A stretch of DNA of 64,000 nt from positions 11,712,698 to 11,776,697 of the forward strand of contig OZ037765.1 of assembly GCA_964035545.1 (NCBI GenBank). The letters are read 5' to 3'. This DNA is from Bugula neritina. Its lineage: Eukaryota > Bryozoa > Gymnolaemata > Cheilostomatida > Bugulidae. A program made the translations under genes and the position numbers. The number at the start of each line of letters is the position of its first letter. Position 1 is the first letter of the stretch. The notes below the pieces were generated by a model. That model had not been told where the DNA came from and made no database searches. It saw nothing but the letters and a program-made list of their open reading frames with translations. Below are positions 29,782-52,700 of this stretch, piece by piece.

Positions 29782-30663
29782 TCAAATAAGTTTGTATTCC
29801 TCTACAGCAGAAGAAGGTATCAGCAAAAGAATTGGATGCTCTATTACTACCTTTCCATCAAGATTGTCTCGTAATGTTTTATTTTGATCAAAAAGATAAA
29901 TGGCTTTGGGTTGATTTAAATGTTCTGCGAGCATGCCAATACACATTGACGCTAATGTAGCACCTCCTGCTTCAAATTGGCCACCAAAAGCTCGTTCAAA
30001 CTCTGACCGGAATAATAGTCGACTAGTGAGCTCTGAGACACAATCATCCTTCTCAATTAGAGTTTTTGATTGCAATGAACCGCTAAGTGGTTTTGTACAA
30101 GACAAAGTCTTGTTTGATTCCGTTCCATTTTGATGTTGAGTCATCAAGTTCTCCAACATTTCCTTAATCTTGAGATCTTCATCAACTTTCCGGTCTTCAA
30201 CTTTACGATTATTGAGAACCCACCGAACATGCCAAAACATTTTAGTGCTGCTGTTCACCTTTCTAGGAAGGTTGCAATTACAGAAGGTGCTGTTGGATTT
30301 CCTACGAGCGGTGAGAAAAGGGGCAAGGCGGTATTCGATGTTTCTTAGAGAGGCAGCTTTGCTGAGCTTAGCCAATACCATTTTATTACAATTTAAATGT
30401 TCTGCAGGTTTATTCAGCACACTGTATGCAACACTATCATCCCATTTAGCTCTTTTTGCCGTACGCTCTAGAAAGTTAATGTCATCTTTTAAATTCGCTT
30501 CATTAAATTCTTGAAGAGATATGTAGGACGTAACATTACGTTTTCCGTTGCATTCAGTGTTTTTCTTGTGCATTGTCACACACTGTAGTGAGCAGGTTCG
30601 TATGGAGCACCTCGGGCAACAGTATATTGCTTCTTTGTCACCACAAACTTTACAAATTTGCAT
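29782..30663 (-). CDS. HIT-type zinc finger protein, BCD1/ZNHIT6-like (box C/D snoRNP assembly)
   Basis: Intronless 293-residue frame. The N-terminus is a zf-HIT domain with all eight ligands in family spacing: C4, C7, C15, C19, C24, C28, H32 and C38. Downstream, a conserved block (about residues 100-150, LRNIEYRLAPFL...FWHVRWVL) and a C-terminal IEHPILLLIPS segment match BCD1/ZNHIT6, a nuclear factor that stabilises NOP58/snoRNA intermediates in box C/D snoRNP biogenesis. It is shorter than the vertebrate protein. The ATG at 30663 immediately precedes the first Cys pair. An upstream ATG followed by GTAAGT at 30742-30724 could belong to an alternative first exon but does not splice cleanly into this frame. 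The family is firm; orthology is likely. Confidence 0.82.
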   Translation of the reverse strand: MQICKVCGDKEAIYCCPRCSIRTCSLQCVTMHKKNTECNGKRNVTSYISLQEFNEANLKDDINFLERTAKRAKWDDSVAYSVLNKPAEHLNCNKMVLAKLSKAASLRNIEYRLAPFLTARRKSNSTFCNCNLPRKVNSSTKMFWHVRWVLNNRKVEDRKVDEDLKIKEMLENLMTQHQNGTESNKTLSCTKPLSGSLQSKTLIEKDDCVSELTSRLLFRSEFERAFGGQFEAGGATLASMCIGMLAEHLNQPKAIYLFDQNKTLRDNLDGKVVIEHPILLLIPSSAVEEYKLI

Positions 30664-31286: not shown

Positions 31287-31591
31287 TGTTATGATTTTCA
31301 GATTTAGGGTTGATGTGCTATCCAGAGAGTCTATTTATTTACTATAGAACTGCACCAGGATAAGTCGAGTGAACGAGTATATTTTACCCACAATTATACA
31401 TCATAAAAACGATACATTATTTCCAAACAAGTTACACATCTAATCTATTTCACACTCTAGCTTCGACTGAGTTAGCAGCGGGAAACTACAATTGCTGCTA
31501 ACTATCAACTACGCTAATTGGCTATTCATTGTTCCGGGTCAATTACGCGACCCTACATGTTGTGCTGCTGGTAGTTCCACGAACCACCACA
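31287..31591 (-). repeat. 3' LTR of the inner retrotransposon
   Basis: 305 bp with TG...CA ends, identical by eye to the copy at 38463-38767. It lies downstream of ORF3 in element orientation. Confidence 0.95.
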
Positions 31592-31877
31592 CCGCCCCCA
31601 CCAGCAGAAAGCCATCTTTCTGATATATATAAAAAAACATTCATTAATAACTACATACATCAGTGGACAAAAATAACACATAATATACAGAAAGAGACAT
31701 AATAATAATACAGAGTCATCGTAACGATCCGTTGCATACAATTGGCCAGCTGTAGATAGACGAGGAATACTAGCTAGCTGTGGTGTTAGACAGGGGATAA
31801 CCTGTTAAGCAGTCAAACATTTACATGACCTCTTGGCTTCTCCCAAGAGGCGGAGTTGGAGTACTCCGGGTAGTCAA

Positions 31878-32955
31878 CTAGAGTCCTTGTTGGGCACGCC
31901 GGTGCTTGGCTTGGCATGTACGCAGTTTCCGTTTCATACGGCATACGGATCCCTTCAGCTGGAAGAGTCCTGTTGTAGTGTTAAGTAGATCTGGTGCCAG
32001 CTGGGTGAATTCTTCTTGTAATCGCAGAAGGCGTTCTTCTACTGTGGCTAGGCGTACTGGGTCTGGGGACGGTGTCCGTCTGCGGCGCAAGGGTGGACTG
32101 GGGGACCTGGTCCGTCTCTTCGTCGGGGTAGGGGAGATCTCTCCTTCTTCTGGATATGTAATTTCCTCGGGGGTGTATGTAATTTGAGGGCGGTCAGACA
32201 CCAACGGGGATTGTTGGCGGGCGTTGTCTAACACACGTTGGAACCCCGAGGACAGAACGGCTAACAGCATGGCCTTCTTCACCAGAGGTCGTATAAGTGT
32301 GAGGAACTCCGGGTATAGCTTAGCGTCGACCACGTAGTTTTCTCCAGGGAAACAGCCCGCCGCTCTGTGTCTGGTGACGGGGTAGGGATACACATCATTG
32401 TACCCGCAGGGGCAGAATGTCAGTAGGAGATGAGCATTGACGTGTAGTTTAAGGGAGCGGTGAGAGGCGCAATCTTCACCACAGATCTGGCATCTCGTCC
32501 GTCCTCTGGACCCCCAGGCTGTTTCTATTTCTTCTTCTGTTTGTGGAGACACCCACCGCCAACGGCGGTGTAGTGGCTCAGGCCGGTCACCGCTAGCAAA
32601 CTCCTCTGGATACGGAGCGGGAAGTGTTCTATCCCGTACCCTGGTTGTAGCGGGTCGAGTGTAATCTGAAAAAGTTTCAACAGTGTTAATACAGTACACT
32701 GCTGTGTTGTCAGCTTGAACAGCTTGGCAACTCCTAATTCAGTTACCTCGTAGAGATTTATGGTAGTGAATAGTCAGATAGAACACGTATTGCAATGAGA
32801 TTATAAAAATCTCTAAGTCAAATTGAGTTCTTACTACGGTATTTCACTAACCTATCTCCAGCTCGATTGACTCAGTGAGTCAGAGCTGAGCGATGCACTC
32901 TAGTTTCGTATTAAGATATAGTTAACTCACCCCACGATCTGTTGTCGTAAGACAT
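31878..32955 (-). CDS. ORF3 of the inner element: spliced zinc-finger accessory protein
   Basis: Modelled as two exons: a 25-nt first exon 32931-32955 (ATG plus eight codons and one base, donor GTGAGT) and 31878-32665 (acceptor TTTTTCAG), joined in phase 1, giving 270 aa. It contains a classical finger C-X2-C-X12-H-X3-H (CQICGE...HVNAH) directly followed by C-X-C-X12-H-X4-C (FCPCG...HRAAGC), then a YPEFLTLIRPL helix block, a Ser/Pro/Arg-rich stretch and a basic C-terminal helix. There is no signal peptide or TM segment, so it is not an envelope gene despite its position after pol. A frame through exon 2 is also open upstream within the intron. The function is unknown; binding to nucleic acid or to integrase/chromatin is plausible. 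Confidence 0.7.
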
Positions 32956-32979
32956 ACTGAATGTGTGAAATGGTTTGAA

Positions 32980-35244
32980 CTACTGCTTAGAAACACGTCT
33001 ACTCCTGACTGCATCAGCGTATGAAAAGATCGAGCAACGTGGTTGGGGTGCGTGATTAAGACTTTGTGCACCCGGCGGATGAATTTTATTTCTATTTCCG
33101 CCGATGCAAAAGTTGATATTTCCGTGGTGTTGACAACTCCCACATTTGCTCGATTCTTTTCTCGTACGGTTTTCCCCTAGACTTTCATGCGTGCCGCTTT
33201 TAACGCAGTCACATATGAAGTCCTTCAAGTATGCGGGGGGTTGCCTCGTACGCTGTCCCCTTTCTAGGGGGGGTGACACGCTTGCCGGTTCGTTAGTAGG
33301 GGCCTCTAATGGCGTCTCTACTTCACCGTCAGCAGTCACCTCTTCTTGTTCTCCGGATGGAGCCCCTCCCTCCGTGGGGGTTTGCACTTCCGGAACCGGC
33401 TCGGTTTCTGGAAGTGATGGAATTAGACTTGGCGGTGGCGGACACGCTTCTGTTGACAAAAGCTGCCGCTCTTCTCTCACCAAGTTTTCCTCCCGCGGTA
33501 TGACCACTTCGTATTCAGGTCCATGCCGCCGTCGCCCGCGCGTTGTTGTCTGCCTCCTGGGCTCCAACAACGGGGGGGCTTCTCCCACTGCGTCGGGGCT
33601 AGCCCAATACGGTTTCAAGCGAGACTCATTCTGGATAGATACCTGTCCTGAGCGCTCAATCTTGTACGTGTGATTGGGCATAGCCTCGACAACCACGTAG
33701 GGGCCTACGAACTTAGGCTTCAGCTTATCAGCCTGTCCGCGGTGCCTACGGTAATTGACCATCCACACCTTATCTCCCCTTTGATAGAGGGGTGGTTCAT
33801 CGGAATCTTCGTGCCGCACCTTCAACTGCTGTTGGCGCAGTATATCGTGTGCGGCCTTCATCCGTTCCACTAGTTCACTGGCATACTCGTGGACTGAGTT
33901 ATCTTGCTCTGGAACGTGATAGGTGAGATGGTCGGGGACACGAGTCTCTCTCCCGAGCATCAAGAGGTTTGGGGTCTCACCAGTACTGGTGTGTGGGGTG
34001 CTACGGTATGCACGCATGACTTGCGGCAACACCGTATCCCATTCCTCTTGACCTCGTCCAAGGAGGAGACTCCGGAGCGCATCACCTAGCATCCGGTTGT
34101 TGCGCTCCACCACCCCGTTACCTTGAGGGTGGTAGGGGGTGGTCCTGCTCTGATTTACTCCCCAGAGGCGGCAAAGGTCGCTCATCAGTTGAGACTGGAA
34201 TTGAGCGCCTTGATCAGAGTGTATCTGTTCGGGGAGCCCAAAATAACAGAATACATGTTGGTCTAGTGCCCTGGCCACTGTTGGGGCTGACGCATCTGGG
34301 ATAGCCAGAGCATCCGCCCACCTAGTAAAGTGGTCGGTTAGTACTAGGATCCAATTATTGCCTCTGGGGGTCAGGGGCATGGGTCCGACCAGGTCTACAG
34401 CGACTACTTGCCAGGGTCTACCAGCGTATAGCCTCCGCCGTCCTGCTTCACCAGGGGGGCGGCTATGCTTACTGGCCTGGCAGATTTCACACTGTTTGAC
34501 TCTGAGCCGGACATCACGCTCCATTTGTGGCCAATACCACCGGAGTCGTAATTTGGACATCACTCGCTTGACCCCTGCGTGGGCCTGCTTGTGAGTATCC
34601 CAAATCAACTCACGGCGGATGGCTGTGGGGCAGACTACCCTCTTCCTTTCTGGGTGTCTGCCGCTGGCAGCTAGAGAGATGGTTAGCAGCCCATCCTGCC
34701 CGATCCGCAGCGAGTCCCAACGCTGACAGTATAGCCGGAACTCGGCGCATCCCTGTCGTATGCGTTCCTCGCTGGGTCGTCGCCCTTCCCTTTTGGCCCG
34801 GTATATGTCTGCCACGACTCCAGGCAGCTCTTCTTGGAGCTTCTTCAGCTCTCGAACATTACCGGCCAGTACAGGGTTGGCGCGGAGGTTTTGTACATCC
34901 TCCGGGGATTCATCAACTCTTTGCCTGAGTTGACCTTGATCCCAGTCAAACGGTGCTCCGTGATGAGCCAGCGTCTCCAACTCGCATCGTGGGGGACCTC
35001 CATCCCTCCTCTCGATGTTGAGACACTGTTTGCAACCTCCGTCAGGTCGACGACTCAAACCATCCGCATTGCTGTGTCTCTTGCCCGGTCGATGTTCGAT
35101 CCGGTATGAGAATTCAGCTAGGATTTCGAGCCACCGGGCGACCTGACTAGAGGGCTCTGCTCTCCTGCACAACCAGATCAGCGAGGCATGATCCGTACGC
35201 AGCCGGAACTTCCTGCCATATAGGTATGGTCTGAAGTGCTTCAC
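32980..35244 (-). pseudogene. Inner element pol, part 2: RNase H end, integrase, GPY/F domain
   Basis: Continuation of pol after the frame break. It holds the end of RNase H, the HHCC zinc module of integrase, the D,D35E core (VAVDLVGPMP, HSDQGAQF, ERNNR), a GPY/F-type domain (KFVGPYVVVEAM), a proline-rich linker and a conserved CDCVKSGTHESLGENR block. It ends with a stop at 32980-32982, 25 nt before the ATG of ORF3. Confidence 0.88.
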
Positions 35245-35252
35245 TGACTTGA

Positions 35253-37589
35253 TTACTGCCAGCAGCTCCTTGCGGGTAGTGAGAGAGACTTGCTGTAGTA
35301 GGCTACTACTACCTCTCGGCCTTCCTGCACTTGTGACAGCACAGCGCCAACATTCTGGTCACTGGCGTCCGTGTCTAGGATGTACTCCAGAGTGGGGTCT
35401 GGGTAGGCCAAGATGGGCGCCGTTAGGAGGCAGCCCTTGAGGCGGTCGAACGCTTCTTGTTCGACTGGAGTCCACTGCCACGTCACTCCCTTTGCGGTGA
35501 GCCGGTTTAACGGCTGGGCTATGCCCGCAAAGTCTGGTATGTATTGCCTGTAATACCCTACCAGCCCCAAGAAAGCCCGGAGTCCGGTCAAGTCTTGGGG
35601 GGTGACCCAGTCTTCTACTGCCCGTACCTTTTCGGGATCCGTTGCCACGCCGTTCCGACCGACAACGTGCCCCAGGTACTTGACCTCCGGCTGCAATAGA
35701 GCGCACTTGGAAGGTTTGAGCTTAAGACCGGCACCTCGGAGTCTCTCGAAAACCTCCTGCAGACGACTGACATGTGTCTCGAAGTCTGGAGAGATTACGA
35801 TGACATCATCGAGGTAGACCAGCAGTGTCTTCCAATGGAGTCCGCTAAGGACTTGTTCCATCAGCCTCTGGAAGGTGGCTGGGGCGGAGGTTAACCCGAA
35901 GGGCAGCACCTTCCACTTCCACAAACCGTCCCGTGTGATAAACGCCGCTTTCTCTTGGGCGTCGGGACTCAGAGGAACCTGCCAATAGCCGCTTAGCAAG
36001 TCTAACGTACTGAAGTACTTGCTGCCGGCTAGGGCGTCCAATGACTCGTCAATACGAGGTAGAGGGTAGGCGTCCTGTATGGTTACGCTATTGAGTTTGC
36101 GGTAGTCCACACAGAACCGCCAACTGCCGTCTTTCTTCCGGACCAGTACGACTGGCGAGCTCCACGCACTATGGGCGGGCTCTATCAGTCCCCGGTCCAG
36201 AAGATCCCGTACTTGTCGGCTAACCTCCTTCTCTTTCTCCGGCCCCAGCCTGCGCGTGGGCTGCCGGACAGGGACTGTCCCTGCAGTCAGCGGTATTTTG
36301 TGTCTGACAATTCCAGTCAGTCTCACGTCATGCTCTCCGCTGCTGAACACATCTCCGTAGTCGCGTAGTAACTTAGCCATAGCTTGGCGTTCCTTGTTAC
36401 TCGCGCAGCCGCCACTGGCTGTTTCATATAACTCCCGGAGATGTGTTGGGACTGCCCCTCGTCCCTGAATAGGGTGTCGAGGGAGTGCCTCCGTCGCATC
36501 ATCCAGCGACGGGCCTACGTCTCCCTCCTGAACAGAGTGAAAACGGCCCAGCATCGACCCAGCCGGGAGCTTGATAGGCTCGGTAAAAAGGTTGACGCAC
36601 TGCACTAAGATCTCCCCTTGCTCAGTCAGCTGATTCAGACTGCTGGCAAGTTGGATCTTTTCGTGCGCGCCTTCAACCACCCCGAGTCCAGAGATCCGGC
36701 TACTATTCACCCTGCAGTGAATGGTAGCCCGGGAGCGGCCTGGTATGGTACGGTTGCGTACCACTTGCACACCTCCCACTAAAGGGCGGCCGAACTTGTC
36801 GACGCAGGCGAGTTCCCGCCCGGACATCATCATTGCAGATCTGCTAAAATCTATGTGACATCCGTGCCGTTTAAGGAACGGCATCCCGAGGATAGCATCC
36901 TCCTTGAGCTGACTGACGATGAACGTCTCTTGGATCGTTTGATCGCGGACTCGTCCCGTCAGCTCAATTATACCATAGAAGGGAAGGCACGACCCGTCAG
37001 CTAGGGTGCCGTATTCCCCTTCGTATGCTTCCATCTCGCCCCTGACCCTAGCACTGAGGGTGTCGAAGAGTTGGTGGCTTAAGAGGTTTGTGGTACAGCC
37101 CGAATCAATGAGAAAAGTAACAGCTTTGCCTTCCAGTTTACCGGGCAAGAAATAGCTGTTCCCATGGGGCTGCACCTGAACTCTCCCTTCAGGCCTTACT
37201 CTCGCAGGGAGTACCTCCCTCGCTTTGGGTCGCGAAGGAGGTCTTTTGGGGCGGTGGTAGGTAGGCCTCGGGGGTGCCGAGGCTAGATTCTCAGCTACCT
37301 TTGTGTGCTCCCATCCAGATTCTTGGACTTGTAGCCCTGTGAATCTGTTGTGAAGGGGCATAGAAAAGGCAGCTGCGGGGCGAAGCCCCTTGCTGGTCCG
37401 TCGTGGCTGTTGCCACTGTTGGTTGCCAGTACGCGGTACCCGTCTGGGTGACCTGCGTTTCTTCTTCCCTGGAGGTTTCATCGTCGGCCCGCGGAAGGTG
37501 GGAACATCTGCGGGCCGCGGTAGTTTAACCCCTGATTTAGGAAGGGGCAATATCGGCGGAAATGTCCTTGATTTCCGCACTCCCAGCAA
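35253..37589 (-). pseudogene. Inner element pol, part 1: protease, RT, start of RNase H (broken)
   Basis: Open frame containing the aspartic protease motif (IDSGCTTNLLS), a full Ty3-type RT with YLDD, and the first part of RNase H (DTDASDQNVGAVLSQ). It terminates early because, compared with the sister element, about 22 bp are missing near 35287, shifting the frame. The break has short direct repeats (GGGT/GT) at its edges. Everything upstream is intact. The first Met shown in this frame is not a true start, since pol would be made from gag by frameshifting. Confidence 0.88.
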
Positions 37590-38431
37590 AAACTGACTGT
37601 TTCTCCCTGTGGCGGCGCCGATGGCCGCATGGGCTCAGGGGCGGTACTCACTGGGGTTTGTGGTGTCAGTGTTGCTATCAGCTTGGCTAGCATGTCTGTC
37701 AGTTGAGTGACTTTCGATGCCGTCGCCAACTGGGACACGGCAGCCGCGGCGGGGGTTTCCTCCCCTTGTCCTGCGGCCGTGTCTGCGCGGTCTATCTCCA
37801 CTTGACGGGAGCTTCCGCGACTTTTATGCATTTGATTAGCTAGGAGGTAAGCTTCCCCCTCAGTCAGAGCATCTTCAACGGTGGTGACTCCCCTAGCTAG
37901 AAACTGGTGGTGGAGACCCAGATCGTCGACAGATGCTATGAAAGCGTCGAGGGTATACCTCTCGCGGTTGACTGGGGGCAAGTCGTTGTACGCGATCTGT
38001 GCCAGCTTCATGACCGCGGCGGCGTGCTCCCGCAGCGGGGTGCGGGGATCACGCCGCAACCTCTGCAATCGGGCCCTGGCATCTGTAGCAGAGAGGCCGA
38101 AGCGGGCCCGCAGAGAAGCAAAGATATTATCAATGTCTACGCCCAGCCCATAAGGCTTGGCTTTGTCCATCAATGCCATTCTAAGCTTCAGCAAGGCCAC
38201 CCTAGGGGGCCACTGGGCGACGTCCATTACGTCGCTAAGCTCTTGGATAAATTGTTCCACCTCCTCTTCACCCGTGAAGGTGGGCGCTTTTAACCTGTAG
38301 CGGTCCTCAGCTAGTTCTCGCGGAACTCTTCGCTCTTCTACTACATGGTTAACAGGCATTGTCTCTACAGCATTGTCTCTACGCTCACCTTCGATTGCCG
38401 GTGGTTGAGTTCCAGCATTTTCAGTCTCCAT
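37478..38431 (-). CDS. Gag of the inner retrotransposon
   Basis: 317 residues, starting METEN. A retrotransposon gag domain (about residues 45-200, with APTFTGEEEVEQFIQEL and LQRLRRDPRTPLREHAAAV) is followed by a CCHC zinc knuckle CWECGNQGHFRRYC near residue 285, which binds genomic RNA in the particle. The pol frame is -1 relative to gag and overlaps its 3' end (37478-37589), so Gag-Pol would need -1 frameshifting or an equivalent. Confidence 0.9.
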   Translation of the reverse strand: METENAGTQPPAIEGERRDNAVETMPVNHVVEERRVPRELAEDRYRLKAPTFTGEEEVEQFIQELSDVMDVAQWPPRVALLKLRMALMDKAKPYGLGVDIDNIFASLRARFGLSATDARARLQRLRRDPRTPLREHAAAVMKLAQIAYNDLPPVNRERYTLDAFIASVDDLGLHHQFLARGVTTVEDALTEGEAYLLANQMHKSRGSSRQVEIDRADTAAGQGEETPAAAAVSQLATASKVTQLTDMLAKLIATLTPQTPVSTAPEPMRPSAPPQGETVSFCWECGNQGHFRRYCPFLNQGLNYRGPQMFPPSAGRR

Positions 38432-38462
38432 CTTGGATGCACTATCTCACCGCTGCCACCAC

Positions 38463-38767
38463 TGTTATGATTTTCAGATTTAGGGTTGATGTGCTATCCA
38501 GAGAGTCTATTTATTTACTATAGAACTGCACCAGGATAAGTCGAGTGAACGAGTATATTTTACCCACAATTATACATCATAAAAACGATACATTATTTCC
38601 AAACAAGTTACACATCTAATCTATTTCACACTCTAGCTTCGACTGAGTTAGCAGCGGGAAACTACAATTGCTGCTAACTATCAACTACGCTAATTGGCTA
38701 TTCATTGTTCCGGGTCAATTACGCGACCCTACATGTTGTGCTGCTGGTAGTTCCACGAACCACCACA
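38463..38767 (-). repeat. 5' LTR of the inner retrotransposon
   Basis: 305 bp, identical by eye to the 3' copy. The gag ATG lies only about 31 nt inside it, so the untranslated leader outside the LTR is very short. Confidence 0.95.
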
Positions 38768-38771
38768 ATAC

Positions 38772-38929
38772 ACACGTCTATTTAATTTACAGCACTATCC
38801 TCAACTGGGCTAGTAGCGCGAAGCTGCTACTATTATTTATAAGCAGCTTAGCTAATTGGCTAATACATCGTTCCGGGTCAATACGCAACCTTGCGTATTG
38901 TGTTGCTGGTAGCTCCACGAGCCACCACA
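38772..38929 (-). repeat. Outer 3' LTR, proximal half
   Basis: 158 bp ending CCACCACA. It adjoins a purine tract (GGAGGGGGCAG on the minus strand) that would prime plus-strand synthesis. Confidence 0.92.
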
Positions 38930-39206
38930 CTGCCCCCTCCAGCAGAAAGCCCTCTTTCTGATAAAAATATAATTCACATAAAAAAACGTATACATCGGTG
39001 GGCAGATAGAGAACAGTACAAAAGTATATACAAGAGCCAACTGATTAGAGATACAGGTATATATATATAAAAAAAATATGTACAATGAATGATGCAAGTA
39101 TGTAAAAGAAAGTCTTATTTACATGTAGAGTACGTGCCACCGTAACGGAAGGAAATGCCACAGAAAGGTAGGGGAAGAGTAGTATGGAGTTGGAGATGGA
39201 CTCAGG

Positions 39207-40337
39207 TTAATCGTGGGCCGCCCGCTTCATGCGTTTAATAGACTCCTGTAGATACTTGAGTTCGCTGGATGCAGCATGCACGCGCGGGGCCAGTCTATAC
39301 ACTTCTTGCTCCAGGTCGTGTGCCCTAGCTTCTACTTCACGTAAGTTGCGGGCCAGAGGGGATGAACGAGAGAAAGCCTGCTGTCTGTGCCTTTTTCGTT
39401 CTGAAGATGGAAGTGGGGAAGGGAGCGTATATGCCTTCGTGTCTACCCTCTGTAGTACGACACGGGGGAGTGTATGCGGTTGGCGTATAGGACTGAGAGG
39501 TGGGGAGTTAGCTGATTTTGTAGGCTTATCCATGATTTCAGAGATGATGGGTCGAGGGGAGGGAAAGCCTTGCTCCAGGCGAGACAGCCGAGCCGAGTCG
39601 GTGATGAGGGGTCTGATGGCGTTAAGGAATGCGGGATATGATGATTTGTCTACTTCATAGATGTGTCCTTGAAAGCACTGCATAGTGCGTTGGTGACGCA
39701 GTAGATAATCACGATTGTAACTATATTCTCCGCAGGGGCAGAACGTTGTGTTGTAATGCTGCGGCAAGTGGACTCTCAGCCTACGATGGGTTGTAAACCG
39801 CTGCTGACATAGGCGGCATTCGCGGTTACTGTCATCTCCTCTATGAGTCTTAATCTCCTTCTCTGTGGCAGGGGTAGTCCAGTTAGAGGTTGCTTCCAAC
39901 TGGGGTGGTAGTTGTCTGGTTGTGGAAGTTGGTGGGGCCGGCTCTGGGTCCCACGCCATCTCTAGAGAAGGCATGCCCGGAGAGACGGACGCGAGTGTGT
40001 CTGCAAAAGTAGAATTATTGTTAGATCGCGGTGGATCTTTACAACATAATTCTAGTGACTGTCGACTGTTACTAGCCTGAGAGTCACAACTTTTGGAATG
40101 CACTCGAAGAACCAGTGAATCATGTGTGGACTGACCAAGAACAGTGTCTAGCTCCAGGTCTAACAGACCGTCGGCCATTACAGTGTCTTCATCGTCATTC
40201 ACGTGAAACGTGGTTCCCAGTAATTCTGATTCAATCTGGTGAATTAGTTCAGAATTTACTGGCATCGAGCCCGTTTCCATGGATAGGAATACAAGACTTA
40301 TACTGGCCTTACCTGTGAACTCGGTATTAATGTCCAT
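39207..40337 (-). CDS. ORF3 of the outer element: spliced zinc-finger accessory protein
   Basis: A 25-nt first exon 40313-40337 (ATG plus eight codons and one base, donor GTAAGG) and a second exon 39207-40000 (acceptor TTTTGCAG), joined in phase 1, give 272 aa. The intron (40001-40312, 312 bp) is a multiple of three. Fingers: CRLC-X12-H-X3-H, then CPC-X12-H-X4-C, the same spacing as in the inner copy although most other residues differ. A YPAFLNAIRPL block and a basic C-terminus (IKRMKR) follow. It overlaps the end of the long pol frame. Confidence 0.7.
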   Translation of the reverse strand: MDINTEFTGKASISLVFLSMETGSMPVNSELIHQIESELLGTTFHVNDDEDTVMADGLLDLELDTVLGQSTHDSLVLRVHSKSCDSQASNSRQSLELCCKDPPRSNNNSTFADTLASVSPGMPSLEMAWDPEPAPPTSTTRQLPPQLEATSNWTTPATEKEIKTHRGDDSNRECRLCQQRFTTHRRLRVHLPQHYNTTFCPCGEYSYNRDYLLRHQRTMQCFQGHIYEVDKSSYPAFLNAIRPLITDSARLSRLEQGFPSPRPIISEIMDKPTKSANSPPLSPIRQPHTLPRVVLQRVDTKAYTLPSPLPSSERKRHRQQAFSRSSPLARNLREVEARAHDLEQEVYRLAPRVHAASSELKYLQESIKRMKRAAHD

Positions 40338-43300
40338 ACTCAACGTTCTTGGTAAGATTGGAGCTGGTTGTGAGATACGTCTGCCTTTGGCGATGTCAGC
40401 GTAAGAAAAGGCTGAGCATCGTTTCTGAGGCACGAGGTCGGAACTATTTGCTTTACGCGCATTAATTCCTCCCACTATTCCGCCCTCGCAAAAGTTGATA
40501 TTTGCGTGGGGTTCACAACTCCAACATTTTATCGTACGGTTTTCCCCTAGACTTTCATGCGTGCCGCTTTTAATGCAGTCACATACGAAGTCTTTTAAAT
40601 ATGGTGGGGGTTTCCTCGTACGCTGTCCCCGTTCTAGGGGGGGTGATACGCTCGCCGGTTTATTAGTAGGGGCCTCTAATGGCATCTCTACTTCACCGTT
40701 AGCGGTCACCTCTTCTTGTTCTCCGGATGGAGCCCCTCCCTCCGTGGGGGTTTGCACTTCCGGAACCGGCTCGGTTTCTGGAAGTGATGGAATTAGACTT
40801 GGCGGTGGCGGACACGCTTCTGTTGACAAAAGCTGTCGCTCCTCTCTCACCAAGTTTTCCTCCCGCGGTATGACTACTTCGTATTCAGGTCCATGCCGCC
40901 GTCGCCCGCGTGTTGTTGTCTGCCTCCTGGGCTCCAACAACGGGGGGGCTTCTCCCACTGCGTCGGGGCTAGCCCAATACGGCTTCAAGCGAGACTCATT
41001 CTGGATAGACACCTGTCCTGAGCGCTCAATCTTGTACGTATGGTTGGGCATAGCCTCGACGATCACGTAGGGTCCCATGAACTTAGGCTTTAATTTGTCA
41101 GCTTGCCCGCGACGCCTACGGTAATTGACCATCCACACCTTATCTCCCGTTTGGTAGAGAGGTGGTTCCTCGGAATCTTTGTGCCGCACCTTCCACTGCT
41201 GTTGGCGCAGTATATCGTGTGCGGCCTTCATCCGTTCCACTAGTTCACTGGCATACTCGTGAACCGAGTTGTCTTGCTCTGGAACGTGGTAGGTAAGATG
41301 GTCAGGGACACGAGTCTCTCTCCTGAGCATCAAGAGGTTTGGGGTCTCACCAGTACTGGTGTGTGGGGTGCTACGGTATGCACGCATGACTTGCGGCAAC
41401 ACTGTATCCCATTCCTCTTGGCCGCGTCCAAGGAGGAGACTCCGGAGCGCATCACCTAGCATCCGGTTGTTGCGCTCCACCACCCCGTTACCTTGAGGGT
41501 GGTAGGGGGTGGTCCGGCTCTGATTTACTCCCCAGAGGTGGCAAAGGTCGCTCATCAGTTGAGACTGGAACTGAGCGCCTTGATCAGAGTGTATCTGTTC
41601 GGGGAGACCAAAATAACAGAATACATGTTGGTCTAATGCCCTGGCCACTGTTGGGGCTGACGCATCTGGGATTGCCAGAGCATCCGCCCACCTAGTAAAG
41701 TGGTCGGTCAGTACTAAGATCCAACTATTGCCTCTGGGGGTCAGGGGCATGGGTCCGACCAGGTCTACAGCGACTACTTGCCAGGGCCTTCCAGCATATA
41801 GCCTCCGCCGTCTCGCTTCACCAGGGGGACGGCTATGCTTACTGGCCTGGCAGATCTCACACTGTTTGACTCTGAGTCGGGCGTCACGCTCCATTTGTGG
41901 CCAATACCACCGGAGCCGTAATTTGGAGATCACTCTCTTGACCCCTGCGTGGGCCTGTTTGTGAGTGTCCCAAATCAGCTCACGGCGGATGGCAGTGGGA
42001 CAGACCACCCTCTTCCTTTCCGGGTGTCTGCCGCTGGCAGCTAGAGAAATGGTTAGTAACCCATCCTGCCCGATCCGCAGCGAGTCCCAACGCTGGCAGT
42101 ATAGCCGGAACTCGGCGCATCCCTGTTTTATGCGTTCCTCGCTGGGTCGTCGCCCTTCCTTTTTGGCCCGATATATGTCTGCCACTACTCCAGGCAGCTC
42201 TTCTTGGAGCTTCTTCAGCTCTCGGACATTATCGGCCAGTACAGGGTTGGCGCGGAGGTTTTGTACAACCTCCGGGGACTCGTCAATCTCCTGTCTGAGT
42301 TGACCCTGGTCCCAGTCAAACGGTGCTCCGTGGTGAGCCAGCGTCTCCAACTCACATCGCGGGGGACCTCCGTCCCTTCTCTCGATGTTGAGACACTGTT
42401 TGCAACCTCCATCAGGTCGGCGGCTCAAGCCATCCGCATTGCTGTGTCTCCTGTCCGGTCGATGTTCGATCCGGTAGGAGAATTCAGCTAGGATTTCGAG
42501 CCACCGGGCGACCTGACTGGAGGGCTCTGCTCTCTTGCACAACCAGATCAGCGAGGCATGATCCGTACGCAGCCAGAACTTCCTGCCGTATAAGTATGGT
42601 CTGAAGTGCTTCACTGACTTGATTACCGCCAGCAGCTCCTTGCGGGTAGTGCAGTAATTTCGTTCAGCGGGTGAGAGAGACTTGCTGTAGTGGGCTACTA
42701 CTACCTCTCGGCCTTCCTGCACTTGAGACAGCACAGTGCCAACATTTTGGTCACTGGCGTCCGTGTCGAGGATGTACTCCAGAGTGGGGTCTGGGTAGGC
42801 CAAGATGGGCGCCGTTAGTAGGCAGCCCTTGAGGCGGTCGAACGCTTCTTGTTCGACTGGGGTCCACTGCCACATCACTCCCTTTGCGGTGAGCCGGTTT
42901 AACGGCTGCGCTATGCCCGCAAAGTCTGGTATGTATTGCCTGTAATACCCTACCAGCCCCAAGAAAGCCCGGAGTCCGGTCAAGTCTTGGGGGGTGACCC
43001 AGTCTTTTATCGCCCGTACCTTTTCGGGATCCGTTGCCACACCGTTTCGACCGACAACGTGCCCCAGGTACTTGACCTCCGGCTGCAATAGAGCGCACTT
43101 GGAAGGTTTGAGCTTAAGACCGGCACCTCGGAGTCTCTTGAAAACCTCCTGCAGACGACTGACATGCGTCTCGAAGTCTGGGGAGATCACGATGACATCA
43201 TCGAGGTAGACCAGCAGTGTCTTCCAATGGAGCCCGCTAAGAACTTGCTCCATCAGCCTCTGGAAGGTGGCTGGGGCGGAGGTTAACGCGAAGGGCAGCA

Positions 43301-43991
43301 CCTTCCACTTCCACAACCCGTCCCCTGTGATAAACGCCGCTTTCTCTCGGGCGTCGGGACTCAGACGGACTTGCCAGTAGCCACTCAGCAAGTCTAACGT
43401 ACTGAAGTACTTGCTGCCGGCTAGGGCGTCCAATGACTCGTCAATACGAGGTAGAGGGTAGGCGTCCTGTATGGTTACGTTATTGAGTTTGCAGTAATCC
43501 ACACAGAACCGCCAACTGCCGTCTTTCTTCCGGACCAGTACGACCGGCGAGCTCCACGCACTATGGGCGGGCTCTATCAGTCCCCGGTCCAGAAGATCCC
43601 GTACTTGTCGGCTAACCTCCTTCTCTTTCTCCGGCCCCAGCCTATGTGTGGGTTGGCGGACAGGGACTGTCCCTGCAGTCAGCGGTATTTCGTGTCTGAC
43701 AACTCCAGTCAGCCCCACGTCATGATCTCCGCTGCTAAACACATCACCGTAGTCGCGTAGCAACTTCGCCATCGCTTGGCGTTCCTTGTTGCTCGCGCAG
43801 CCGCCACAGGCTGTTTCATATAACTCCCGGAGATGTGCTGGGACTGCCCCTCGTCCCTGAATAGGGTGTCGAGGGGGCGTCTCCGTCGCGTCACCCAGCG
43901 ACGGGCCCACGTCCTCTTCCTGGACGGAGTGGAACCGGCCCAGCATTGACCCAGCTGGGAGCTCAATGGGCTCGGTAAAGGGGTTGACACA
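39207..43991 (-). CDS. Outer element pol (RT, RNase H, integrase) read through into zinc-finger ORF3
   Basis: One uninterrupted frame of about 1,590 codons. In order: RT with YLDD, RNase H (DTDASDQNVG), integrase HHCC and D,D35E core, GPY/F domain (KFMGPYVIVEAM), a CDCIKSGTHESLGENR block, a Ser/Asp-rich linker and the zinc-finger ORF3. The first Met in the frame (43946) is internal to pol. Unlike the inner copy, there is no stop between pol and ORF3, so unspliced RNA would give a fusion. Apart from the nonsense codon just upstream, this part of pol looks capable of coding. Confidence 0.88.
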   Translation of the reverse strand, partial: CVNPFTEPIELPAGSMLGRFHSVQEEDVGPSLGDATETPPRHPIQGRGAVPAHLRELYETACGGCASNKERQAMAKLLRDYGDVFSSGDHDVGLTGVVRHEIPLTAGTVPVRQPTHRLGPEKEKEVSRQVRDLLDRGLIEPAHSAWSSPVVLVRKKDGSWRFCVDYCKLNNVTIQDAYPLPRIDESLDALAGSKYFSTLDLLSGYWQVRLSPDAREKAAFITGDGLWKWKVLPFALTSAPATFQRLMEQVLSGLHWKTLLVYLDDVIVISPDFETHVSRLQEVFKRLRGAGLKLKPSKCALLQPEVKYLGHVVGRNGVATDPEKVRAIKDWVTPQDLTGLRAFLGLVGYYRQYIPDFAGIAQPLNRLTAKGVMWQWTPVEQEAFDRLKGCLLTAPILAYPDPTLEYILDTDASDQNVGTVLSQVQEGREVVVAHYSKSLSPAERNYCTTRKELLAVIKSVKHFRPYLYGRKFWLRTDHASLIWLCKRAEPSSQVARWLEILAEFSYRIEHRPDRRHSNADGLSRRPDGGCKQCLNIERRDGGPPRCELETLAHHGAPFDWDQGQLRQEIDESPEVVQNLRANPVLADNVRELKKLQEELPGVVADIYRAKKEGRRPSEERIKQGCAEFRLYCQRWDSLRIGQDGLLTISLAASGRHPERKRVVCPTAIRRELIWDTHKQAHAGVKRVISKLRLRWYWPQMERDARLRVKQCEICQASKHSRPPGEARRRRLYAGRPWQVVAVDLVGPMPLTPRGNSWILVLTDHFTRWADALAIPDASAPTVARALDQHVFCYFGLPEQIHSDQGAQFQSQLMSDLCHLWGVNQSRTTPYHPQGNGVVERNNRMLGDALRSLLLGRGQEEWDTVLPQVMRAYRSTPHTSTGETPNLLMLRRETRVPDHLTYHVPEQDNSVHEYASELVERMKAAHDILRQQQWKVRHKDSEEPPLYQTGDKVWMVNYRRRRGQADKLKPKFMGPYVIVEAMPNHTYKIERSGQVSIQNESRLKPYWASPDAVGEAPPLLEPRRQTTTRGRRRHGPEYEVVIPREENLVREERQLLSTEACPPPPSLIPSLPETEPVPEVQTPTEGGAPSGEQEEVTANGEVEMPLEAPTNKPASVSPPLERGQRTRKPPPYLKDFVCDCIKSGTHESLGENRTIKCWSCEPHANINFCEGGIVGGINARKANSSDLVPQKRCSAFSYADIAKGRRISQPAPILPRTLSMDINTEFTGKASISLVFLSMETGSMPVNSELIHQIESELLGTTFHVNDDEDTVMADGLLDLELDTVLGQSTHDSLVLRVHSKSCDSQASNSRQSLELCCKDPPRSNNNSTFADTLASVSPGMPSLEMAWDPEPAPPTSTTRQLPPQLEATSNWTTPATEKEIKTHRGDDSNRECRLCQQRFTTHRRLRVHLPQHYNTTFCPCGEYSYNRDYLLRHQRTMQCFQGHIYEVDKSSYPAFLNAIRPLITDSARLSRLEQGFPSPRPIISEIMDKPTKSANSPPLSPIRQPHTLPRVVLQRVDTKAYTLPSPLPSSERKRHRQQAFSRSSPLARNLREVEARAHDLEQEVYRLAPRVHAASSELKYLQESIKRMKRAAHD

Positions 43992-44870
43992 CTACACTAA
44001 GACCTCCCCTCGTTCAGTTAGTCGGTTTAAACTACTAGCGAGTTGGATCCTTTCGTGCGCGCCTTCAACGACCCCGAGCCTGGCTATCCGGTTGCTGTTC
44101 ACTCGGCAGTGGATAGTAGCTCTGGAGCGTCCGGGCACGGTGCAGTTTCGCACTACCTGAACACCGCCCACCAGAGGACGCCCAAACTTATCCACACAGG
44201 CGAGTTCTCGCCCGCCCATCAGCACCACCGACTTGCTGAAGTCTATTCGGCACTGGTGTTGCTTCAAGAAGGGCATTCCGAGGATAGCATCTTCCTCCAG
44301 TTGGCTTATGAGAAAAGTCTCCTGTACAGCCTGGTCTCGGACACGCCCAGGGAGCTCGATAATACCGTAGAATGGAATACATGACCCGTCTGCCAGGGTG
44401 CCATGTTCCCCCGTATACGGTCGTACTCTATCCCTGTCCCGGCGGGGCAGTGCCTCAAAGACTCTACGACTGAGAAGATTAGTAGTACAACCGGAGTCGA
44501 GCAGGAAAGTGACGGCGTTGCCGGCCACCTTTCCGGGTAGGAAATAGCTCTCTCCATGTGGTTGTACTTTCACCCCCCCCGCATGTGCTGTCCTAGATTG
44601 GTAGGACGGCGGGGGTTTCACCCGTGGTTTACGAGGTTTCCGGCGGCAAGGTTGGTGCCGGCGGGGTTTGGGGCTCTCCACTGGGCCTTCCGGCTCCATT
44701 TCAGTGGCGGGCTCCTCCTCCTGAGGTAACCGGTTCCACCGGTTGGCGAGTGGCAGGGAGAAGGTACTTGGCCGTTGTGAGGGCCTGCTAGTCCTGCGTG
44801 GTACCTGCCACTCGGGGGGAGTGTTCCGTCGTGTCCGTACGGACAGACGACGGCGTGTCCCACCAGACTC
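43992..44870 (-). pseudogene. Outer element pol, protease segment, ended by a nonsense codon
   Basis: The pol frame is open from the gag overlap through the aspartic protease (LDSGCTTNLLS) to TAG at 43992-43994. The inner copy has a glutamine codon there, so this is a single C-to-T type change on the coding strand. The frame continues without other breaks into the large frame downstream. Confidence 0.85.
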
Positions 44871-44872
44871 TT

Positions 44873-45742
44873 TCAGTTGCGGCCCGCGGGGAGGGAGAGC
44901 GTCCGCGGGCCGTGACAGTTTAACGCCCCCTGGTATTGGGGTCGTCCTTTCTGTCCATGGTCCTGACCAGCACTACTCCAGCCCTGCCTCACAGGTGTTG
45001 GGGGCAACCGCAGGGCCTGACCGGGGCCAGCGCCGGCCAGAATTGTTACCAGCTGTCCCAGCATCTCTACCATACGGTCCACTTCGGCTTCCAGCGGGGG
45101 GGGGGCTTTGGGGCCTGTCGTGGCCCTGGCAGCACTGACTCCAACTACTGGTGGGTTCCGTTGTGCTCGATGCATTTGGGTAGCCAACAGGTAAGCTTCT
45201 CCAGCCTTCAGGGCATCCTCTATTCTGGTTATCCCTTTAGCTCGAAGTTGATGGTGTAGGCCCAGGTCGTTTAGTGACTGGACAAAGGCGTCGTATGTGT
45301 AACGCTCTTGGGGTGGCACTGGTAGGTCACCATACGCAATCTGTGCCAGCTTCTTCACCGTCGCGGCATGTTCTTGCAGCGAGGTCCGCGGGGTGCGGCA
45401 CAATCTCTGTAGCTTGGTCCTAGCGTCTATTGCGGAGATGCCAAAACGGGCCCGCAGCGCAGCCAGTATCCCGTTTACGTCCGTTCCCACTCCGTACGGC
45501 TTGGCTTGCTCCGTCAACGCTCTCCGCAATTGGATAAGGGCCACTCTATGCGGCCATTGAGCAATATCCATTACCTCACTAAACTCTTGTATAAACTGTT
45601 CGACATCTTCTGACCCAGTAAAGGTGGGAGCTTTCAAGCAATATCTATAAGCTTCTTCTCCCTCACGATTCACAGGATTAACATCATTTCTACGCTCACC
45701 TTCTACTGGGGGTGGTTGCATTCTAGCATTTTCAGTCTCCAT
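44873..45742 (-). CDS. Gag of the outer retrotransposon
   Basis: 289 residues from the METEN start. The capsid-like region is homologous to the inner gag (APTFTGSEDVEQFIQEFSEVMDIAQWP) but clearly diverged. The CCHC knuckle expected near the C-terminus is not recognisable in this frame; the region reads GWSSAGQDHGQKGRPQ, consistent with local insertions or deletions. Pol is again in the -1 frame relative to gag. Confidence 0.82.
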   Translation of the reverse strand: METENARMQPPPVEGERRNDVNPVNREGEEAYRYCLKAPTFTGSEDVEQFIQEFSEVMDIAQWPHRVALIQLRRALTEQAKPYGVGTDVNGILAALRARFGISAIDARTKLQRLCRTPRTSLQEHAATVKKLAQIAYGDLPVPPQERYTYDAFVQSLNDLGLHHQLRAKGITRIEDALKAGEAYLLATQMHRAQRNPPVVGVSAARATTGPKAPPPLEAEVDRMVEMLGQLVTILAGAGPGQALRLPPTPVRQGWSSAGQDHGQKGRPQYQGALNCHGPRTLSLPAGRN

Positions 45743-45776
45743 CTTTGATGTACACAAATCCCACCGCTGCCACCAC

Positions 45777-46075
45777 TGTTATGCTTTTCAGAATTAGGGT
45801 CGATGTGCAATCAAGAGAGTCTATTTATTACTAGAGAAACTTCACCGTGATGAGTCGAGTAGATATCGTTATATTTGAATACAAGATTACATAATAAAAT
45901 CTAATACACAACAGTTAATAATACACACGTCTATTTAATTTACAGCAATATCCTCAACTGGGCTAGTAGCGCGAAGCTGCTACTATTATTTATAAGCAGC
46001 TTAGCTAATTGGCTAATACATCGTTCCGGGTCAATACGCAACCTTGCGTATTGTGTTGCTGGTAGCTCCACCACA
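45777..46075 (-). repeat. 5' LTR of the outer retrotransposon
   Basis: 299 bp. It matches the two halves of the split 3' LTR except for a few substitutions and a 7-bp deletion near 46070. It shows the uninterrupted target site of the inner insertion. Confidence 0.93.
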
Positions 46076-47030: not shown

Positions 47031-48319
47031 AGATATCCACCTCAACCTCACAAACGAGATATACCAACCATATAACAAACCAAGGCCACAAAGAAGGACA
47101 TATGCAACATTTTCAAGCAATATGGATTAGGAATCACAATTGAGGCAAATAAAAAGACAGTAAATTTTTTAGATATCCACCTCAACCTCACAAACGGGAT
47201 ATACCAACCATATAACAAGCCAAACAATATCCCCACATATGTTCATGCAAAATCCAACCACCCACCATCTATTACTCGCAACATTCCAGAATCCATAAAT
47301 AGACGACTCTCATCCATCTCATCCAACTCCACCACATTCAACAACAACACAGCAATCTACCAACAAGCACTCATTAAAAGCGGATACAATCATAAGCTAA
47401 ATTTTCACACACCCGCAGAGGTCACAAAGAAACCAAATCGTAGAAGGAAGGTAACATGGTTTAACCCTCCTTTTAGTAAAAACGTAACTAATAACATCGG
47501 AAAAGAGTTTATCAAAATCATCAGCGAGGAGTTTCCTCCAAGCCATGAACTCTACAGAATTTTTAATAGGAAAACATTAAAACTGTCATATAGCTGCATG
47601 CCCAACATAGCAGCAATCATAAATGGTCACAATAAGAAAGTATTGAAATCAGAAGAACATGAACACCACACAAAGCCATGTAACTGCAAAACTAAAAACA
47701 ATTGCCCACTGAGTGGCCAGTGCTGCACTGAGGCTGTCGTTTACCAGGCAACAGTCACAAACAACAACAACACAGCAGTAGAGACATACGTGGGACTAAC
47801 CCAGAACCAGTTCAAGTATCGATACAATAACCACACAGCCAGCTTCAAAAACACCAGTAAACAAAACTCTACTGAGCTGAGCAAATATATCTGGAAATTA
47901 AAGAACAATAATATAGCTTATGAGATAAAGGGGAAAATTCTAGCCAGAGCACAACCATGCAACAAGCAGTCACCACTCTGCAAGCTGTGCCTGCTAGAAA
48001 AATACTTTATAATTTGCAAGCCACATCTATCCTCACTCGACAGCCGTAATGAGATCATAACAACATGCAGGCACGCTAGAAATCTCCTCCTAGAGAATGT
48101 GACTTGACATTTTAATCTCTTAATTACTTTTATTCCATCTATTTATGTATTTTAATCCATTGGCTTTATAGCTTTTACACACATTTCTCATACATATATA
48201 TAGTATGTTTTTATTCTTGTTACACTACATCTTAACATTTTATCTGAAGATTGTGTACATTCAATGCACATGAAACTAGTAGTAATAAAGTGTTTTAAAT
48301 CAAATTTTATCGTTCATTA

Positions 48320-49754: not shown

Positions 49755-52700
49755 CTACTCACATGCTAATTTACTATCAAAACTGCTCAAGGCTATAGCA
49801 AATGCTTGCAAAGCACACATTGGATATCTATAATCCATAGTGAACACATCTTCTGCAACTCGGCCAAATTGCATGACAATATAATCCACGTCATTGTCGT
49901 GAACAATTTGAAAATTTTTAACAGAAGCATGAGTGACCCGGCCATGAAAATTAAGCACGTATGATTGAGTTTCCTCATTCCACACAGGCGTTTTGTTGTG
50001 TAGTTCAATAAGATTTTCCATTTGCTTGCGTTTCCATCGGTTCACAATACCTTCATTTTCATTGCTAGGCTGAACTTCCACCCGATCTTGATCCAGGTTC
50101 ATGCCAGGAATTATGCAACTCATTTTTCTGGGACCTTTAAATCCTAAGACATTTGTGTCATACACAATGGCAGCCAACTCCTTCCTAAGACTTTGTCCGG
50201 AGCCTTTGCCGGGAGCCTCACCATTATCAAACACGGTGAACTGAGTGCCCAGCCTATTAGAGCGTAGTTTCCCTACGTAGGTGTCGCTCTCTCTCCCTAA
50301 ATCAGTGGGATCAATAGAGATAAGGTAGTTACTAGTAGCACTCTTTTTACGCTTTCTTCCAGCCAATAGAAAGATTTTTCGGTTATCTTCTCTCTCCATG
50401 TGAAGGTAGTACGTTGGGTACATGGTCCTATCCACTCCCTTCTTATCTCTGGTTATTCTGCATTTAATTTGCGTATGTTGTGCAGCAGGCCGCAATACAA
50501 ATGCTTCCAAGCTGTCAGTTGGATCAAAAGTAGTGTTGAATGCTTCATCCCCTCCACCAGAGGCTAATTCTCTACAAAATTTTTAACAAAAAATTAAACT
50601 TAGCAAAATTTGAGCCTTTTTATCTACGTTAGTTTACATTTTTAAGCTACACTTACTTTTTAAAATGCATTTTATTAATTATAAAACAAAAGTATATAAA
50701 AATTATTAATAATTGAATAACGATTTAGTCAACAATAAAACAAAATTAAATTGAGTTTTATTTTGTAAAAAGTATTGCAGTGTAAGAACTGTTCTGTTTG
50801 TACTTATAGCATATATGAATGCACAGAGCCTCCCTGCAACTTTTCGTTAAAATATATGATTTGCAATGAAAAATAAAATAATAGAACAAAAGTGTAAAAA
50901 CCGAATGTTTACCAGAAATGTATACTAACCGTTTGTTGTTGACTGCAGAAATATCCCGAGTGTTTGTGAATACATCTGGTGGACTACTAGGCTGTGCCTC
51001 CTGAAATTATCACAAAATTAGGGCCATAAAACTTAAGCACATAACATAATAACCTCATAATGAGGCCATTTGTCAAGGTTAATTGATTAACTAGGCTATT
51101 TATGGTTAACTAAGGACTGTGAATTACAGCTAGCTTTCAGATTTTCTAATCTGATCAAAACATCTAGTACACTAGAACTAGACATATAAAAACAAAACCT
51201 CACAGGGGTAACAATTGCTGCTATTCATTTATGCAAGTGTATAATATTACTTCAAACCAAAACCGGTATTGTCTAAGCTGATGTTTATTTAAGGCATTCT
51301 ATAAGATTCTAACATACAATGGTTATACAGCATTTGGCCTACAAATAGTACAAGCAACGTTAACTTTTTATAAGATCTGTTGTATTCCACCCTGTTGATA
51401 ATGGGTAATTAACTGATAACTGATAACAATTTACATCTCCTGACCTCATGTGTAACTGGCACAACCACCTGGCATTTTTACCACCACAATAAAAATCTTA
51501 ATTATAACTGATTCAAACAAAAATTGGCCCAAATTTTAACCTGAGCCATCAAATTTTCTTTATGAAAAAGGCACTGAGACACTGGGCACTAGTTGCTATT
51601 ACTAGTTAACTGGTAACTCTTTTATTAACTCAATTTATAGCTTGCAGCTACTCTAAATATTACATCTACTATGGGAAATGAATTACCACAGGCACAGGTG
51701 TTCACAGCCCTACAATTGAAAATTTTCGAGACACCCCAGAGCTCAGTTGATACTGTAGCTTTTACTGCACAAGTAATCATCTCTTCAATTACTGGCAACG
51801 CAAATCAGCTGAGTAGGGGGCATGTAACAAAATACGACATTGAAAACTAGATGCATAAACATGCAGGAACTTTCATCATAAAAACAATAACATTTTACTG
51901 AGCTGTAGCTGCAGGGCTGAGACTAATATATTTAGTGACTGTGTGTCACCATACTGCTAGTGAAGAGATATGTGAAAATCAATATACTCTATCATATTCA
52001 TCACTCATATTCAGCTTAATTTCCATAAAAACTGATTACTTTAACAACCAGGCAACTAATGACTAAAATCTAAAATAGCTGATGAAAACTTAACATGTCT
52101 TATATACCTAATGACTGAAACGTACCTGAGTAATGTTAGAGTCAGGTATAACTGCTGTCTCCAACTCATCTTCATCTTCAGACCCAAAAGCTTGCTTCTG
52201 TTCGACTACTTGCGCTTTGGGAGGCACAACTTCCTCGGCTTCGCGCCGATTTTTTTTCTTTGATTTCTTTTGCTTTTGTGGTGGAGGCTGTTGCACTGGC
52301 TGCTCTACGGGTTTTGGTGGAGTTTGCATTTGGTTAGTGGATAGATTGCTAGCCTGGCTCTGGGATTTCTTGGGAAGAGAAATATTTGAACTCACAATGT
52401 CACTTTCGGATAGGGATCCATCAGATTCATCTATGACATCAGGTGGAGCCACATTCACTACTTTTACACTTGTACCAACCGGTTCCGCAGTTTCCCCATT
52501 ATCATTGTAAGCTTCCGGATTATCATAGGCATATCTACTTGCACCTTCCGAGGGTTCAGACGAATTATTTACCAGTGGAGTTTTTCCATCTCTCTTTCTA
52601 GCACTTGACACTTCATTTCGCTCAATTTTTCCTAACTGGTGTCTCCGCTTCTTTTTTTCTTGTTGCTCCCTGAGCCTTCGTTGTCTTTCAAGTTGAGCCA

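Follow-up and report, generated by a model that had tools for sequence, protein, structure and literature searches.

Complex retroviruses carry well-known regulatory genes for the splicing and export of their own RNA; to our knowledge, few such genes are known among retrotransposons, CERV of the Caenorhabditis elegans element Cer1 being an example. Here we describe open reading frame 3 (ORF3), a gene at the 3' side of pol in two Ty3/gypsy-type long terminal repeat (LTR) retrotransposons of the bryozoan Bugula neritina. Both elements lie on the minus strand of a 64,000-nucleotide stretch of contig OZ037765.1 (hereafter the window), one nested in the other; the inner element belongs to a family that we call A and the outer element to a family that we call B. 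Searches of open-licence literature showed no description of the gene, in agreement with the initial annotation of the window, which had not recognised ORF3 as a described gypsy accessory gene.

The nearest precedent that we found, by analogy, is CERV. In the cited portions of the Cer1 report, CERV is a protein of 517 amino acids with H, M and G domains, encoded by a five-exon mRNA in which exons 1-3 share the gag frame (PMC10309623). It contains a Cys-rich region that may be a zinc finger, along with a potential leucine zipper; its Cys loop is essential for export, and the unspliced Cer1 RNA is the genome (PMC10309623). Likened by description, CERV and ORF3 are both accessory proteins of LTR retrotransposons that arise from spliced RNA and contain a Cys-rich, finger-like region; for ORF3, an origin from spliced element RNA was found in family A only, and its fingers differ in type from the C4-type loop of CERV.

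Small introns of LTR retrotransposons have been described in plants. The Ty3/gypsy element Ogre contains an intron averaging 274 bp that is spliced from a subset of transcripts (PMC6317226), and the intron of family A is likewise small and partly spliced. In the parts of that work cited here, Ogre splicing joins gag-protease to reverse transcriptase (RT)-RNase H-integrase, whereas the ORF3 intron lies behind pol and its removal joins no protease and RT frames; it builds an extra gene. The barley copia-type element BARE1 has a 104-nt alternative intron and, like family A, pools of spliced and unspliced RNA; attempts to amplify DNA copies of the spliced RNA from barley DNA failed (PMC3735527), unlike the spliced RNA of family A, which is found integrated four times. 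Extra genes are also on record: varied ORF3s behind pol, subject to modular exchange, in bdelloid rotifers (esterase, exonuclease or env-like; PMC5408684), and the small sORF1 and sORF2 of env-less LTR retrotransposons of the Drosophila MDG1 group (PMC11952523). The rotifer proteins described in the cited text include no zinc-finger proteins, unlike the Bugula ORF3. The MDG1 genes resemble ORF3 as extra genes in env-less elements and differ in that, according to the same source, their LTR-to-LTR transcripts show no splicing and sORF2 encodes a membrane protein.

Accessory genes expressed from spliced RNA (CERV) and introns that are spliced in part (Ogre, BARE) are already known in LTR retrotransposons. 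ORF3 would extend these cases by a conserved zinc-finger family that occurs in 177 database proteins and, here, in two element families of high copy number; its genomic copies record splicing directly. An intron that is obligatory in family A and readable in family B makes the reason for keeping such introns testable.

Splicing and conservation of ORF3

The exon lengths, intron lengths, phase and protein sizes given in the initial annotation were recovered for both elements (Table 1). We searched the 216-Mb genome with a pattern that joins the last bases of exon 1 of family A directly to the first bases of exon 2. It matched at four places, each time exactly; its reversed control matched nowhere. 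LTRs flank all four intronless copies on both sides, and their ORF3 encodes 270 or 268 amino acids. Three of the copies have identical LTR pairs and matching 4-bp duplications (GTAC, CACG and ATAT); the fourth, L072 (C6:6198887-6206123), lacks a matching duplication, has LTRs that are unlike at nine sites and may be an inter-element recombinant. The exact absence of the intron from four genomic copies shows that family A RNA is spliced. Repeated deletion was rejected as an explanation, since the intron ends allow only a 1-base shift and are identical at four separate sites.

These four copies compare with 166 A-type donor sites in the genome (up to three mismatches; 162 for B-type, so that both families are high-copy), and the intron was present in 28 of the 30 A loci fetched, the other two (L013 and L017) being the same places as L072 and L070. 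As copies with the intron far outnumber those without, reverse transcription uses mainly unspliced RNA, and the intron is removed in a fraction of the RNA molecules. The intron has persisted even though copies without it arise, which argues for, but does not test, a need for it. One intronless copy, L071, differs by at least 10% from every A copy compared and has its pol elsewhere in the pol tree; it is clearly a separate lineage, and spliced RNA must have been copied back at least twice. L070 and L072 differ from the intron-bearing L010 by 0.67% and 0.85%, respectively, and from each other by 1.07%, which suggests that they represent separate intron losses; their pairing in the pol tree is unsupported (81/0).

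The fingers of the family A protein depend on this splicing. The intron is not open in the exon 2 frame: read without splicing, this frame meets a stop at 32741, and its first ATG, at 32270, lies past both fingers, the first of which starts at 32492. In the absence of an in-frame ATG upstream of the fingers, unspliced RNA cannot yield them. The three diverged A loci (L084-L086) retain the intron and its GTGAG.

In both families, purifying selection on exon 2 is strong. The ratio of nonsynonymous to synonymous divergence (dN/dS) between genomic copies, proposed earlier as a check, had medians of 0.08 for A and 0.11 for B, far from 1, when three young copies were compared with four (A) or seven (B) old ones; the B value is only rough because its dS is near saturation. 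Differences at the first, second and third codon positions numbered 35, 15 and 107 in A and 68, 35 and 143 in B, with the third-position excess in the ORF3 frame only. These ratios rule out chance or decay as the source of exon 2. Splicing and strong selection together mark a real accessory protein, and they support, for family A, the proposal of a separately encoded protein that arises from spliced RNA and is maintained by selection. For family B, splicing is only suggested by conserved splice sites, and no spliced copy matched the two junction patterns searched.

The ORF3 proteins of the two families are 32% identical, and their profiles match over 228 columns (hhalign, probability 99.8%, E = 2.9e-28), by which they are homologous. 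With the four exact intron losses and the selection on exon 2, this homology bears out the view that their shared layout exceeds chance. Both contain the finger 1 motif C-X2-C-X12-H-X3-H and the YPxFLxxIRPL block, as had been noted. Finger 2, reported as exactly shared, differs: it reads C-X-C-X12-H-X4-C in A and ends in H-X5-C in B. Among the relatives in which it was readable (104 of 146), the last spacing was X5 in all 66 B-type or newly found proteins; the 38 A-type relatives had X3 (31) or X4 (seven). The curated Pfam C2H2 models gave best scores of 13.3 and 15.9 bits, under their cut-offs of 25-27. The spacing of finger 1 and the predicted fold agree with the C2H2 type.

Structure prediction yielded a confident core for the B protein and a model of low confidence for A (mean predicted local distance difference test score 56). 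Sequence searches of solved structures found nothing for A and, for B, weak matches only, to fingers and coiled coils, and no ORF3 relative was found in the viral contigs searched. Protein database searches returned 56 and 65 relatives, and a joint profile raised the number to 177; none of the 120 listed among these 177 (sources jgi, ena and lgn) carries a Pfam domain or a name. In two ORF3 searches of the genome, the best 146 of 945 and the best 145 of 1011 candidates were scored.

The putative intron of family B

Conserved sites suggest that family B is spliced as well. We read 37 B loci, of which 30 are close and seven diverged (about 70-84% DNA identity). The donor GT was present in all 37, GTAAG in 36 and the acceptor AG in 36; the putative intron is 311 bp long in most of them and keeps a branch-like CTAAC or CTGAC. 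Both splice sites are kept in 36 of the 37 loci. Among the 47 readable B-type relatives, which were found with a pattern that included D/E at the acceptor, the preceding residue was L (24), S (13), V (9) or I (1). Each of these can be encoded as NYA and is compatible with a YAG acceptor. A database protein, P0079, has the N-terminus MAEEGTELPIPRNEDHTR, without the usual residue before the acceptor D; it may come from a spliced relative.

For family B only, a serious if somewhat doubtful candidate is that the putative intron is plainly coding, ORF3 being an unspliced protein of 357 amino acids and the GT-AG pair a relic or chance. Such a protein would start at a second ATG, found 56-57 nt past the first in nearly all loci. 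The frame from this ATG is open through the putative intron in 31 of the 34 loci that have it (by pattern, 37 read), the database relatives of B share the same N-terminal start, and no spliced B copy was found in the genome with two junction patterns. Against this stand the splice sites, kept in the seven diverged loci too, and the residue before the acceptor, encodable as NYA in all 47 readable relatives. The intron frame shows little codon signal: differences at the three codon positions are 12.3, 10.0 and 13.3, and dN/dS is 0.41, compared to 0.57 and 0.84 in the other frames. Chance has a fair probability of leaving such a frame open (0.13-0.51 for 80-20 random changes), and the difference in spliced copies between A (4/170) and B (0/162) is not significant (p = 0.12).

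ORF3 had been placed after pol in both elements. This holds for family A, where the ATG lies past the pol stop; in the window copy of B, pol, the putative intron and exon 2 form one open frame of 1579 amino acids (43946-39207) because of one extra G (GGTAAGGCC) after the donor, which does not occur in the other B loci aligned. In 29 of the 30 close loci (all but that of the window), the frame of the ORF3 ATG meets its first stop 36 nt past this ATG, within the intron, so that splicing would fuse pol to ORF3. In all seven diverged loci, a stop lies 12-30 nt upstream of the ORF3 ATG.

A consensus fold of seven copies places a long hairpin inside the B intron (40262-40217 in the window). Few of its pairs change, and it may reflect coding or RNA structure.

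Exchange of pol and possible functions of ORF3

The two elements are not uniformly diverged. Between the inner and outer elements, RT is 94.5% identical in protein sequence (dS = 0.15) and RNase H-integrase with the pol tail 96% (dS = 0.20); synonymous sites are saturated or nearly so in gag (dS = 2.05), protease and ORF3. The RT-integrase part of the inner (38767-31287) and outer (46071-38772) elements is recently shared, their gag, protease, ORF3 and LTRs anciently diverged. Slow change of pol was rejected as the source of this contrast on the strength of these synonymous distances.

In a tree built for 62 loci on 1 kb of pol at its integrase end, A fell inside B at two places, on supported branches. 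LTR type matched ORF3 type in 60 of these loci, the exceptions being the outer element of the window, in which an A element is nested, and L062, which lies beside a listed A match. By this tree, pol has crossed between the families at least twice, and ORF3 and LTR have stayed matched. Such exchange of pol with ORF3 staying argues against a dedicated integrase partner, and ORF3 seems to need no integrase of its own. It is therefore improbable that ORF3 guides integration by way of integrase and a chromatin feature. That role was suggested in the initial annotation, and the finger fold and the place of the gene directly behind integrase favour it, but it fits poorly with a pol whose RT and RNase H-integrase differ by a dS of only 0.15-0.20 between elements with ORF3s as dissimilar as these, and whose integrase end has moved between families.

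As read from the sequence and, for B, also from the model with its confident core, ORF3 has two fingers, one C2H2-like and one of the form C-X-C...H...C, accompanied by a small helical block, a basic linker and a long helix at the C-terminus. By analogy with CERV, our favoured reading, to which we give a probability of roughly 0.4, is that ORF3 is a nuclear accessory protein that acts on the element's own RNA or LTR and controls the unspliced genome RNA. In family A, it is made from RNA that loses the 265-nt intron in a fraction of molecules, as the intronless copies show. We infer that it would enter the nucleus, form oligomers through its C-terminal helix and bind the element's own RNA or LTR, and that it would set the amount of RNA that escapes splicing to be exported as genome, in the way that CERV does for Cer1. 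Family B keeps its splice sites and can also read its intron as an acidic N-terminal extension, perhaps giving two forms. A splice-gated switch seems quite unlikely: A would have to splice, the B intron would be an acidic domain, and retention or removal would pick between two forms of a zinc-finger regulator that acts on its own element. The intron would then be kept since its loss, repeatedly offered by reverse transcription of spliced RNA, breaks the switch.

A special RNA structure of the introns was rejected. Single folds of exon 1 with the intron gave z-scores of -3.4 (A) and -3.7 (B); on a sliding-window footing the introns had -2.7 and -3.4, compared to means of -2.85 over the inner element (50 windows) and -1.96 over the outer element (48 windows). 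Covariation was slight, with both-sided change in 4 of 94 pairs among seven sequences, several of them short at the 3' end, and neither intron matched an Rfam family at the gathering score. Exon 2 (about 39836-39256; 32532) is among the least structured RNA of these strongly structured elements; its z-scores in B range from about 0 to +1.7, and values near 0 also occur in the LTR and at the start of gag.

Several observations weigh against the favoured reading of ORF3 as a CERV-like regulator. The sliding windows make the A intron ordinary, with no more structure than the rest of its element, and the B intron only modestly more stable than the outer-element average, with little covariation. 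In L084, a worn copy and one of the three diverged A loci, the acceptor AG is shifted by one base. ORF3 lies more than 5 kb from the RNA start, which leaves its translation unexplained, and no copy spliced from the leader to ORF3 was found among the leader places that could be paired (39 of 40; spacing 4.4-6.3 kb), for which 66 of the 146 ORF3 places were used. The basic SP-rich linker of A is missing in most aligned A-type relatives. CERV, as far as the cited text describes it, is encoded elsewhere in its element, by exons shared with gag, whereas ORF3 shares no first exon with gag: it starts behind pol as a 3' gene and has C2H2-like fingers. The matching of ORF3 and LTR types may be functional or plain linkage, because the two are neighbours. 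Finally, the predicted C2H2-like fold would suit DNA as well as RNA.

This last point also bears on a somewhat unlikely alternative, that ORF3 is a DNA-binding regulator of its own LTR promoter. In the model, the two fingers superpose on DNA-binding C2H2 proteins, and ORF3 type follows LTR type. The N-terminal 93 residues of B have a net charge of -11, with residues 22-107 predicted to be disordered, and could be an activation domain; unspliced B RNA would then give the activator and spliced RNA a shorter form without the acidic domain. We give little credence to a role in countering host silencing by piRNA or chromatin, which the zinc-finger and long-helix make-up and the high copy number of both families would suit. 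A worn env-like gene is hardly credible: it would account for the place after pol and the splicing in A, but ORF3 has zinc fingers and a basic linker and no Pfam envelope match.

The two elements in the window

The inner element has inserted into the outer element's 3' LTR, which starts at 38929 and is split by it. The paired LTRs and short target duplication of the inner element identify it as an LTR retrotransposon, and the outer element has the Pfam domain order of gypsy-type pol (RVT_1, RT_RNaseH, Integrase_H2C2, rve). The features are collected in Table 1.

Table 1. Positions of the two nested elements, their genes and neighbouring genes in the window.
Feature	Position	Strand	Basis or remark
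Inner element, family A, Ty3/gypsy-type	31287..38767	-	identical LTRs, target duplication GTAT, pol domains
Inner LTRs, 305 bp each, identical	38767-38463, 31591-31287	-	LTR pair comparison
Inner element target duplication, 4 bp			GTAT on both flanks
A gag-like ORF, 317 aa	37478..38431	-	ORF list
A pol	32980..37589	-	two listed ORFs, 37589-35253 and 35244-32980
A pol stop, TAG	32982-32980	-	
A ORF3 gene, 270 aa when spliced	31878..32955	-	reading of window and intronless copies
A exon 1, 25 nt	32931..32955	-	ATG at 32955, 24 nt past pol stop
A intron, 265 bp, phase 1	32666..32930	-	GTGAGT...TTTTTCAG; exactly missing from four genomic copies
A exon 2, 788 nt	31878..32665	-	two Cys/His fingers, YPxFLxxIRPL, basic SP-rich linker, long C-terminal helix
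Outer element, family B	38772..46071	-	LTR comparison
Outer 5' LTR	near 46071-45758	-	
B gag-like ORF, 294 aa as listed	44873..45757	-	ORF list, Pfam scan
B protease ORF	43992..44699	-	Asp_protease_2 match
B pol fused in frame to ORF3, 1579 aa	39207..43946	-	ORF list, locus alignments
B ORF3 as first proposed, 272 aa if spliced	39207..40337	-	splice reading is putative
B ORF3 unspliced, 357 aa	39207..40280	-	start METGSMPVNS inside putative intron; database relatives, locus reading
B exon 1, 25 nt	ATG at 40337	-	
B putative intron, 312 bp, phase 1	40001..40312	-	GTAAGG...TTTTGCAG; GT-AG sites
B exon 2, 794 nt	39207..40000	-	two fingers, YPxFLxxIRPL, basic linker, long C-terminal helix
Host-type gene, BCD1/zf-HIT domain	29782-30663	-	Pfam
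Host-type gene, Tub family domain	49755-50510	-	Pfam

The A gag-like ORF matched no significant family in a Pfam search. An ORF of 169 amino acids on the plus strand (47598-48107), also without a Pfam match, resembles by eye a GIY-YIG-like or retroelement fragment. In the window copy of family A, the pol frame is broken near 35250 despite the identical LTRs.

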